From Haloprofundus salinisoli (lineage in GTDB: Archaea; Halobacteriota; Halobacteria; Halobacteriales; Haloferacaceae): DNA of 64,000 bases. Shown here in pieces: positions 22,834 to 36,497 of this stretch (position 1 is its first letter; every line of letters begins with the position of its first letter). The stretch lies in NCBI RefSeq assembly GCF_020097815.1, contig NZ_CP083663.1:1550001-1614000 (forward strand), in the 5' to 3' direction. Position numbers and translations under genes: made by a program. Under the pieces are notes generated by a model. The model did not search any database and was not told where the DNA came from. It worked only from the letters and a program-made list of their open reading frames with translations.

Positions 22834-24126
22834 GTGAAACTCCAGTTTCTCGGCGGCGCGCGCGAGGTGGGCCGCAGCGCCATCCTCGTCAACGACCGCC
22901 TCCTCCTCGACTACGGGATGCTGACGGGTAACCCCCCGCAGTTTCCCGTCGGGTCGGTCGACCCCGATGCCGTCGTCGTCTCTCACGGTCACCTCGACCA
23001 CGTCGGTGCGATTCCCACCCTCCTGTCGGGCGACGCCCGCCCGCCTCTCCACTGGACGCCGCCGACGTACGAACTGGCGATGACGCTCGCGCGCGACATG
23101 CTCAAACTCCACGGCGGCACCTACAGTTGTCCGTTCACCGAGAACGATCTCAAGCGCGTCACCGAAGTCGCCGAGACCCACGGCTACCGCGAGACGTTCG
23201 AGGCCGCGGGGCACGAGGTGACGTTCTACAACGCGGGTCACATCCCCGGTAGCGCGCACGTCCTCGTGGACGACGGCGAGACGCGGCTGCTCTACACGGG
23301 CGACTTCCACACCGACTCCCCCCGCGGAAGCTTCGCTTCCGCGAGCCGCGCGAATCGACTCGGCGAGTCGATTCGCGGACAGCGCCTCGTCTCGGGATCG
23401 ACCGCCCGCCCCGACGCCGACGTCGTCGTCTGCGAGAGCACGTACTCGGACGTCGAACACGACCACCGCGCCGACGTCGAGCGACGTTTCGTCGAGTCGG
23501 TGCGGACCACGCTCTGGGAGGGCGGCACCGTGGTGGTCCCGGCGTTCGCCATCGGCCGCACGCAGGAACTGATGCTCGTCTGCGCGGCCCACGACATCGA
23601 CTGCTACGTTGACGGGATGGGACAGCGCGTCACGCGGATGCTCCGTAGCTACCCGGAGTTCGTCCGCGACGCCGACGCGCTCAAGCGAGCGGTGTCGAAC
23701 GCGCGCTTCGTCACCGGCCGCGACGGCCAACGCAAGCGTATCGCCCGCAAGAACACAGTCATCATCACCACCTCGGGGATGCTCTCGGGCGGTCCCGCGA
23801 TGACGTACATCCCCGAGATTCGGACCGACCCGGTGAACAAGATAACCATGACCGGGTATCAGGTCGAGGGGACGCCCGGCCGCCAACTGCTCGAACGCGG
23901 ACGTTGCGAACTGAACGGCGGCGTCGTCCCCGTCGCCGCGCAGGCCGAGGCGTACGACTTCTCGGCGCACGCCGACGCCGACGGCCTCCGCTCGTTTCTG
24001 GACGAGTACCGAGGGGCGAGAGCGCTCGTCAATCACGGCGACCGCTGCGAAGCGTTCGCCGCGGAGCTACGAGAAGACGGCTACGACGCCAGTGCGCCGG
24101 AGCTCGGCGAGACGGTACACGTTTGA
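22834..24126 (+). CDS. Beta-CASP metallo-beta-lactamase RNase (aCPSF2-like)
   Basis: A 430-residue RNA nuclease of the beta-CASP group lacking KH domains, as in archaeal CPSF2/RNase J-type enzymes that process or degrade RNA. The zinc motif SHGHLDH starts at residue 50 (His51, His53, Asp55, His56), followed by GHIPGSAH and the Asp of YTGDF. The beta-CASP motifs CESTY, AFAIGRTQE, SAHAD and NHGD follow in order. An in-frame palindromic DNA insert adds about 21 residues (162-182) directly after GDFHTD, in a loop next to the active site. The GTG start is supported by the immediate first strand (KLQFLGGAREVG). Confidence 0.88.
   Translation: MKLQFLGGAREVGRSAILVNDRLLLDYGMLTGNPPQFPVGSVDPDAVVVSHGHLDHVGAIPTLLSGDARPPLHWTPPTYELAMTLARDMLKLHGGTYSCPFTENDLKRVTEVAETHGYRETFEAAGHEVTFYNAGHIPGSAHVLVDDGETRLLYTGDFHTDSPRGSFASASRANRLGESIRGQRLVSGSTARPDADVVVCESTYSDVEHDHRADVERRFVESVRTTLWEGGTVVVPAFAIGRTQELMLVCAAHDIDCYVDGMGQRVTRMLRSYPEFVRDADALKRAVSNARFVTGRDGQRKRIARKNTVIITTSGMLSGGPAMTYIPEIRTDPVNKITMTGYQVEGTPGRQLLERGRCELNGGVVPVAAQAEAYDFSAHADADGLRSFLDEYRGARALVNHGDRCEAFAAELREDGYDASAPELGETVHV
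23323..23378 (+). repeat. Double palindrome inserted in frame within the nuclease gene
   Basis: Two adjacent perfect hairpins. The first, 23323-23343, has nine-base arms around a TTC loop (CGCGGAAGC/GCTTCCGCG). The second, 23349-23377, has 13-base arms around a GGC loop (CGCGAATCGACTC/GAGTCGATTCGCG). Together with flanking bases they span 21 codons with no stop, and they interrupt an otherwise conserved beta-CASP core. This looks like a small mobile palindromic element of the kind usually found between genes. Confidence 0.85.
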
Positions 24127-30945: not shown

Positions 30946-31097
30946 CGAAGGGAGCGAGCGGGCCGAGGAGTGAACGGAAGCCGCGAAGCGGCTGAAGCGA
31001 ACGACGAGTGCTTTTGGTCCGAGAGCAGACGCTTCGCGTCTGCTAAGCCTTCGCGGTGAAACCGCGAAGAGAGCTTTTGCCGAGGGCGGCGAAGCCG
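30946..31097. repeat. Cluster of GAA/TTC-loop hairpins downstream of the reductase gene
   Basis: Within 150 bases there are several perfect stem-loops with three-base GAA or TTC loops: 30979-30993 (six-base arms AGCCGC), 31024-31044 (nine-base arms AGCAGACGC), 31049-31069 (nine-base arms CTTCGCGGT) and a short one at 31087-31097. They are preceded by the CGACCGAAGGGAG and GAGGAGTGA words, which recur near 36022. The run lies just past the stop of the minus-strand reductase gene, so it would form its 3' untranslated end. Confidence 0.8.
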
Positions 31098-31121: not shown

Positions 31122-32888
31122 CTAGTCGTCCGACGCAATCGGCGTTCCGTCGGCGTGCGCGGGCGCGGGGCTGTCGTCCATATCGTCCTCGTCGGCGTAC
31201 GGGTACCACGTGAGCTTCGTGTTGTGCATCATCGGGTCCTCGTAGTCGGTCTCCTCGGGTTCGATGAGCGCTTCGAGCTCCTCCTCGTCGAGGCGCTCGA
31301 CGAACTCGCGGAACGTCTCCTCGCTCTCGCGGGCGTCCTCGAAGTTGGCGAGCAGATTCTTAATCGCGCCGGGTACCTCGTCGGCGGGGACGCGCTGACC
31401 GACCCAGTCGGCGAACTGCGGGTTCTCGCCGAGGCCGCCGCCGAGGCCGATGTCGAGCGCTTCGACCGCCTCGCCGTTCTTGCGCGTCTTCATGCCGCGG
31501 AGGCTCACGTCTGCGATCTGCGGCTGCGCGCAGGAGGCCGTGCAGCCCGAGAGGTGGATGTGGAAGTCCTCGACGCCGTCGGGGAGTTCGACGTTCTCCT
31601 TCAGCCAGCGCGCGTAGCGCACCTGCCGGTTCTTCGTCTCCACGATGGAGAGCGAACAGAACTCCGTGCCGGTGCAGGCGATGGAGCCGCGCATGAACGG
31701 ATGCGGGTCCGGCGAGTAGTTGTCCAAGAGCTCCTCGGCGAGGAACTCGTCGAGGTTCTCCTCGGGGACGTCGGTGACGATGGCGTTCTGGCGCTGGGTC
31801 AGGCGGACCTCGCCGGAGCCGTATTCCTCGGCGAGGTCGGCGAGTTCGAGTACGTCCGCCGCACCCATCCGGCCGACTAGCACGTCCAATCCGACGTAGT
31901 AGTTACCGTCGTTCTGCTCGTGGACGCCGACGTGGTCGGAGTGGCCGCCGTTGGCGTGGCCGGAGTTGTACGAGTACTCCTCGCGGAGGTCCTCGCCCGC
32001 CGTCTGCAGTTCCCAGTCGACGTACTCCTCCTGGAGGACGCGGCGGAACTTCTCGGGGCCCCACTCGTCCATCAGGAACTTGACGCGGGCGTTGTAGCGG
32101 TTCTCGCGGTCGCCGTGGTCGCGGAACAGCGCGGAGATAGCGCCGCCGACTTCGCCCGCCTGCTCGGGCGTGACGAACACGTCGAGGCCGCGGGCCAAAC
32201 GCGGTTCGTTGCGGGCGAGACCGCCGCCGACACGGACGTTGAACCCTTTCTCGCCGTCTTTGGTTGCGGGTTCGTAGGCGAGGTCGTTAATGTCGCCCTG
32301 GCCACAGCCCTCGCGGCAGCCGGTGACCGACACCTTCCACTTCCGCGGGAGGTTCGTGTGGTCCTCGTGACCTTTGTACGTCTCGTGGAGATCCAGCGCG
32401 ACGGGGAGCGCGTCGACGTGTTCGTGTTTGTCCTTGCCGGCGACGGGGCAGCCGACGATGTTCCGCCAGGAGTCGCCGCAGGCCTGCTGCGTGGAGAGTC
32501 CGTGTTCGTCGAGTTTCTCGAAGATAGCCGGGATGTCCTCGATGCGGATCCAGTGGAGCTGGATGGACTGCCGGGTGGTGAAGTCGGCGTACGCCGCCCC
32601 GAACTCGGGGTTGACGCCGGGACCGCGGGCGTACTCGTCGGCGATCTCGCCGACGGCGCGGACCTGTCCCGGTTCGAGCACGCCGTTGGGCGTCCCGATG
32701 CGCATCATGAAGTAGCTCTCCTGGCCGTTTCGCTGGTGGTACAGCCCCCACCACTTGAAGCGCTCGAACCAGGCGTCGCGCTCGTCTTCGGGAATCGACT
32801 CCCACCCGTTCTCGGCGAACTCGAACAGATGCTCCCGGATCTCGTTACCGTACACCTCGGACTTCCATCGCTCCACGTCGGTCGGCAT
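31122..32888 (-). CDS. nirA: Ferredoxin-dependent nitrite/sulfite reductase
   Basis: A 588-residue sirohaem/[4Fe-4S] reductase with the two tandem half-domains of this family. The cluster-sirohaem ligands are Cys405 and Cys411 (CTGTEFC), and Cys449 and Cys453 (CTASC). The N-terminal half holds the TRQSIQLHWI active-site strand and the C-terminal half TQRQNAIVTD. It should reduce nitrite to ammonia (assimilation) using ferredoxin; sulfite reduction is the close alternative. No nitrate reductase, transporter or sulfate-pathway gene lies nearby, so the choice rests on overall resemblance to haloarchaeal NirA/NasD. Its 3' end runs into a hairpin cluster. Confidence 0.82.
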   Translation of the reverse strand: MPTDVERWKSEVYGNEIREHLFEFAENGWESIPEDERDAWFERFKWWGLYHQRNGQESYFMMRIGTPNGVLEPGQVRAVGEIADEYARGPGVNPEFGAAYADFTTRQSIQLHWIRIEDIPAIFEKLDEHGLSTQQACGDSWRNIVGCPVAGKDKHEHVDALPVALDLHETYKGHEDHTNLPRKWKVSVTGCREGCGQGDINDLAYEPATKDGEKGFNVRVGGGLARNEPRLARGLDVFVTPEQAGEVGGAISALFRDHGDRENRYNARVKFLMDEWGPEKFRRVLQEEYVDWELQTAGEDLREEYSYNSGHANGGHSDHVGVHEQNDGNYYVGLDVLVGRMGAADVLELADLAEEYGSGEVRLTQRQNAIVTDVPEENLDEFLAEELLDNYSPDPHPFMRGSIACTGTEFCSLSIVETKNRQVRYARWLKENVELPDGVEDFHIHLSGCTASCAQPQIADVSLRGMKTRKNGEAVEALDIGLGGGLGENPQFADWVGQRVPADEVPGAIKNLLANFEDARESEETFREFVERLDEEELEALIEPEETDYEDPMMHNTKLTWYPYADEDDMDDSPAPAHADGTPIASDD

Positions 32889-36126: not shown

Positions 36127-36142
36127 TTTTTCTGCGAACAGC

Positions 36143-36161
36143 GCGAGACCGAAGGTCTCGC
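36143..36161 (+). repeat. Perfect hairpin with GAA loop
   Basis: Eight-base arms GCGAGACC and GGTCTCGC enclose GAA. It is of the same design as the hairpins at 30979-31069 and the first palindrome at 23323. Confidence 0.8.
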
Positions 36162-36497
36162 AAGCCGTGCAGGCGACTCACGTGCCGCCCCCAGACGAAG
36201 TGAGCAGTGAAAACGCCTCAGTGAGAGTTGAAGTAGACTGTACTCGCTTCGGTACGTCTGCAGACGCTCTACGTTCGCTACTCATCCGTCGATTCACTCC
36301 CGAATGTGAACCGAAGGTGGTGGAGAAAAGGTCGGTACGTGCTCTGTCACGTACCGCGAGCCATTCAGCCCGTCCCGGACGGCGGTTTTACCCGGTACCG
36401 TTCGTTCAGCCAGCCGTTGTCGGGTCAAACGCGACCGCGATGTCTGTCAGTGGCGTGACGAACGGAGACAGATTAGGGGTGCCTCCGGACGCTCCGC

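Follow-up and report, generated by a model that had tools for sequence, protein, structure and literature searches.

The locus considered here raises the question of how two perfect hairpins came to lie in frame within the coding sequence of a nuclease of the haloarchaeon Haloprofundus salinisoli. The features concerned, numbered within the stretch of 64,000 nucleotides that was analysed (the window), are as follows.

22834-24126, + strand: host gene, an open reading frame for a 430-residue metallo-beta-lactamase/beta-CASP nuclease with an RMMBL domain (Pfam Beta-Casp, RMMBL and Lactamase_B).
23320-23379, + strand: net in-frame insertion of 60 nt, or 20 codons (PRGSFASASRANRLGESIRG; residues 163-182), delimited by alignment with homologues.
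23323-23343, + strand: hairpin 1, perfectly paired 9-bp arms CGCGGAAGC and GCTTCCGCG with a TTC loop (3 nt).
23349-23377, + strand: hairpin 2, perfectly paired 13-bp arms CGCGAATCGACTC and GAGTCGATTCGCG with a GGC loop (3 nt).

The solved structures closest to the nuclease are those of archaeal CPSF-like nucleases and of RNase TTHA0252. An earlier interpretation based on the DNA letters (the sequence-only reading) had called the enzyme an essential-type RNase; it is a short beta-CASP nuclease whose score against the aCPSF1 model, 234 bits, is far under the cut-off of 580 bits, so that this label is unsupported. That reading was right about the two perfect hairpins and about the absence of a stop codon, the whole gene (22834-24126) being one uninterrupted frame, and its estimate of 63 bases or 21 codons has to be reduced to a net gain of 20 codons over insertless relatives. 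Perfect hairpins of 9 and 13 bp are far beyond chance: under a first-order Markov model, hairpins with arms of at least 13 occurred at a mean of 0.05 per simulated window, and close pairs with arms of at least 7 at a mean of 0.35. If its loop is taken as 1 nt, hairpin 2 extends to 14 bp. The predicted structure of the nuclease has a confident core (mean pLDDT 84, pTM 0.86); insert residues 163-172 fall below a pLDDT of 50, as would be expected for a flexible loop.

The insert was expected to be missing from most homologues, and so it is: among 137 distinct nuclease homologues, 97 lack it, 24 carry it in full and 16 have a partial insert or a different loop, so that some insert is present in 40. 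It is found in unrelated families (in Halosimplex, Halostella, Natronorubrum and others), and its presence alternates with absence within the genus of H. salinisoli itself, within Halosimplex and within genera g57, g62, g6 and g33. Empty sites were seen in three relatives (G002, G003 and G004), while the closest relative, G001, retains a 9-nt remnant (ARG, in the context DSARGQRLV) that could have arisen by deletion between CGCGGA repeats on either side of the palindrome. Insertless sister species in the five genera inspected show no scar at the site. By parsimony, which does not tell gain from loss and leaves the direction of change a matter of inference, at least 20 changes are needed on the tree, whereas 200 shuffles gave 34.7 on average and never fewer than 29; the insert tracks kinship in part and yet switches often. 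A second insert site in the nuclease, after the SAHxLV motif, holds inserts of similar design in G002 and G030; upstream in its nuclease gene, G002 has a different double-hairpin insert of its own (42 nt).

Copies outside the nuclease gene were sought with two covariance models, for both of which E-values are rough and genome-wide counts are lower bounds, as limited numbers of candidates were scored per genome. Model R1 was built from ten nuclease-site copies, and R2 from four sequences, namely three weaker copies found by R1 in the H. salinisoli genome and one from G125. R1, whose match on the nuclease insert spans 23322-23381, produced full-length matches with E<=0.01 in 180 of the 392 genomes searched within the order; a genome often had more than one, and most lay outside the nuclease gene. 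The unit of the family measures about 51-60 nt and consists of two adjacent hairpins, each commonly with some 9 bp and a 3-nt loop; the short linker between them is often GAGCC. Many of the copies in other genomes lie between genes and some in genes, for example in uvrC of G006 and G033. Judging from open frames and domain matches, and with the H. salinisoli genome included, seven further coding cases are probable, in genes for UvrC, MerA, Kae1-Bud32, YchF, a hydrolase, CPBP and HHH proteins. Most copies that lie outside genes measure 55 or 56 nt, in contrast to in-gene lengths, which are multiples of three; this has the appearance of selection for frame. Element copies also reside on plasmids of Haloferax species, and a search of PLSDB with the consensus returned haloarchaeal records only (18/18 and 5/5).

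The H. salinisoli genome itself contains at least eight copies, R2 giving eight matches at E<=0.05, one of which covers the nuclease insert on its reverse strand. Their hosts, identified with Pfam and NCBIfam, are the nuclease, trpA, a prenyl diphosphate synthase, an acetyl-CoA synthetase (two copies), a helix-hairpin-helix protein, a CPBP-type membrane protease and a remnant frame. Seven of the eight lie within long open reading frames and keep the frame; the eighth, of 55 nt, interrupts a small remnant frame, upstream of which is a gene with a C-terminus judged by eye to be that of serine hydroxymethyltransferase. Each in-gene copy adds about 14-20 amino acids. The sequence-only reading had named a genome free of further palindrome copies as a result that would refute it, and the outcome goes in part against it. 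An exact and near-exact DNA search of the genome found no identical arms elsewhere, and the copies are visible only to models that combine structure with sequence because their arms differ from one another. The lack of identical copies also means that recent transposition in this genome is not proven. Near-exact arm matches in the genome and the family were dismissed as chance (e.g., in a ribosomal protein gene and at a conserved g28 gene start).

Clean comparisons of empty and filled sites come from trpA, the synthase and both acetyl-CoA synthetase sites, for which ten relatives were aligned. The trpA insert is present in H. salinisoli and G004 and absent from the other 9 genomes compared; the synthase insert is confined to H. 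salinisoli; and the two inserts of the acetyl-CoA synthetase gene (L302; C1:2844752-2844805 and 2845403-2845453) are absent from all ten relatives. These four comparisons in three other genes are direct evidence of in-frame insertion and support the central proposal of the sequence-only reading, that a mobile palindrome can colonise coding DNA and become a peptide insert. In trpA, the synthase and the second acetyl-CoA synthetase site, the insertion lies directly after GACG, ends in GACG and amounts to a net 54 nt; the first acetyl-CoA synthetase site (51 nt) is less regular.

The elements probably prefer GACG targets. GACG stands at the 3' end of 40 of 42 R2 copies, a figure that is partly by construction, since the four-sequence model contains these positions. 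It also occurs in the left flank of 15 of the 42, against a background of about 0.11, and that flank is for the most part not covered by the model. Ends are variable in the R1 subfamily, which includes the window copy (GGACA, AGAGA, AGACG), and the nuclease-site ends do not have the GACG pattern of the other sites. Insertion beside a tetranucleotide that matches the element end is known from single-strand (HUH) transposition, as in IS608 and REP/RAYT.

In our opinion, the insert very probably belongs to a family of small mobile palindromes of haloarchaea, non-autonomous and similar to REPs and RPEs, one copy of which has here become a peptide. Dispersal, in-frame insertion with empty sites, repeated switching at the nuclease site and decay are all shown by comparison of the genomes. 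Copies would insert both within genes and in the gaps separating them, in several cases at a GACG tetranucleotide, and active transposition of this kind would draw on insertion chemistry supplied in trans, possibly single-strand and HUH/IS200-IS605-like, given the likeness to the IS200/IS605 type. Within genes, only copies that keep the frame open would survive, as flexible, hydrophilic and presumably neutral peptides in tolerated loops. They may later decay to ordinary coding sequence with the peptide kept, or be deleted.

An RNA-based explanation has to be weighed against this, since the arms covary. In ten nuclease-site copies with recognisable hairpins, from 10 genomes, 88.6% of pair cells are paired under the scheme derived from the H. 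salinisoli sequence, a figure biased upward by that choice of structure; two-sided counts are less affected. Two-sided changes occur in 9 of 22 pairs (6 of 13 in hairpin 2) and in 20 cells, compared with a shuffled mean of 6.0 and none of 500 shuffles reaching 20, and sliding of the pairing partner abolishes the signal. The double hairpin might accordingly be read as a conserved cis-acting mRNA element selected for RNA structure, for example an autoregulatory cleavage site, in a gene from a family of RNA-cleaving enzymes. We regard this as highly improbable. The element is missing from the majority of homologues and switches on and off inside single genera; in genera g32 and g3 the palindrome has decayed at the nuclease site and the peptide has been retained; the same type of element occurs in trpA, acs, uvrC and intergenic DNA; and Rfam contains no match. 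Moreover, the 20 two-sided changes are accompanied by just 4 one-sided ones, an excess that would be expected from the insertion of different copies or from arm-templated repair, and not from stepwise evolution of an RNA.

A very unlikely alternative, to our minds, is an ancient peptide loop with a single gain and many losses, its palindrome being an accident of codon choice. The sequence-only reading had singled out the same residues under other codons as an argument against mobility, and approximately the same 20 residues (e.g., DHRGSDAPASRTNRAGEPIRGQRLV) are indeed encoded, by different codons, at this position in homologues from other families; the use of this one site in many families could also reflect a single old insertion followed by many losses. 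The patchiness of the insert across homologues tells the other way, as do hairpins so perfect, arms that covary and homologous elements outside the nuclease gene. Losses would also have had to be scar-free in the sisters of five genera, whereas the partial loss in G001 left 9 nt behind.

A third possibility concerns the origin of the elements and is compatible with a mobile palindromic family: they could derive from IS605/IS1341-type transposons, either as their fused ends or as their 3' (right end/guide-RNA) region, which would make them very short PATEs mobilised in trans by TnpA. We consider this possible, although on balance doubtful. PMC3119063 describes terminal-only PATEs of 52 bp with near-terminal palindromes. 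One R2 copy, in Halocatena salina, directly follows a tnpB remnant; another, in G030, is located where a complete tnpB has its 3' end; and further tnpB fragments are close to copies in G115 and G001. Most copies, however, have no tnpB nearby; no PF01797 match to a Y1 (IS200-like) transposase was obtained at E<=1e-4 in H. salinisoli or G125; and no strong R2-like ends were found at the Y1/TnpB loci of the genus, including the IS605 loci with tnpA. The lack of a Y1 match in H. salinisoli implies that the mobilising enzyme has been lost, is supplied from elsewhere or is of another kind. Two further ideas about mobility were discarded: inverted copy pairs a few kb apart do not behave as composite transposons, as ordinary genes lie between them, and a match on an IS6-annotated gene of Haloferax mediterranei is an element that overlaps the annotated start, which does not count as evidence of mobilisation by IS6.

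Within the window, two other places bear on the claim of the sequence-only reading that the hairpin design recurs between genes.

31024-31069, + strand: second close hairpin pair, 9-bp and perfect, intergenic, 3' of the open reading frame 31122-32888 (- strand); model matches at E about 1.
36141-36197, + strand: partial match, hairpin GCGAGACC-GAA-GGTCTCGC followed by AAGCCGTGC; R1 E 0.038 and R2 E 0.19 over the window, which does not reach significance by itself.

The first pair, bordered by CTTTTGG and GCAAAAGG-like ends, is a possible relative of the family, and the second match is possibly a decayed or partial copy. The recurrence is thus weakly borne out, neither place giving a significant model match.

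Rickettsia provides the best-known case of palindromic elements that colonise genes in frame. The nearest counterparts in behaviour are the Rickettsia RPEs and the CGTC-tagged REPs (PMC3733652, PMC10969869), a likeness of behaviour that is not meant as family membership. As with RPEs, small palindromic repeats stand in frame in unrelated genes and add peptide; insertless orthologues exist, here for trpA, the prenyl diphosphate synthase, acs (two sites) and the nuclease; copies are multiple and dispersed in unrelated genes and between genes; and a nucleotide excision repair gene has been hit, uvrC here and uvrB in R. conorii. Unlike RPEs, which measure about 150 bp, the present elements have archaeal hosts and consist of two small hairpins within about 51-60 nt. 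According to PMC3733652, the CGTC-tagged REPs include RPE-4 and RPE-6; they are likewise short palindromes, mostly head-to-head dimers, have no known dedicated transposase and are in some cases found inside DNA repair genes. Their CGTC end (GACG on the strand read here) is a possible further likeness. The consulted passages of that survey deal with bacteria, loop and stem sizes differ, and the CGTC-tagged REPs are mostly extragenic, in contrast to the H. salinisoli copies, all but one of which lie in long reading frames. The GTAG REP/RAYT system (REPtron) differs in that a Y1 transposase would be expected in the genome. PATEs of Haloquadratum are similar in being haloarchaeal, transposase-free and palindromic; they differ in being described as the termini of IS605-type transposons and as sites into which other mobile elements often insert, and the consulted portions of PMC3119063 mention no in-frame coding copies. 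A 2025 REP survey took in archaea, and no haloarchaeon appears in its table (PMC12306157). Our literature searches, with limited coverage of subscription papers, returned no account of palindromic elements within archaeal coding sequence; in-frame elements of this kind are therefore apparently new there, short of proof of novelty.

A broader reading, towards which we lean with some reserve, is that these copies represent an undescribed, order-wide superfamily of double hairpins with a preference for GACG/CGTC, a recurrent source of in-frame loops in housekeeping proteins, with a hot spot convergently reused in the beta-CASP nuclease. If so, it would be an archaeal counterpart of the RPEs in a group with genetically tractable hosts. 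It opens the questions of which enzyme moves the elements, whether it is silence that makes the insertions tolerable, and how frequently selfish DNA turns into protein loops; these can be tested, since trpA and acs combine clean empty sites with growth phenotypes that are easy to follow, and since copies exist on Haloferax plasmids. Annotators should be aware that such insertions can pass for lineage-specific protein features.

Some minor observations may be added. The nuclease has a third loop of variable length, near residue 42, in a few genomes (e.g., SRGSGQGVDPDAV). In G001, two copies with identical flanks (L277 and L285; G001:C2:1126395 and 1130687) lie 4.3 kb apart, antisense in a YchF-like GTPase gene, reflecting either gene duplication or an assembly artefact near the contig end. 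In other families, intergenic copies (L245-L248) share longer flanks, TTTTTGC ... GCAAAAA, and occur as near-identical inverted pairs 2-4 kb apart.
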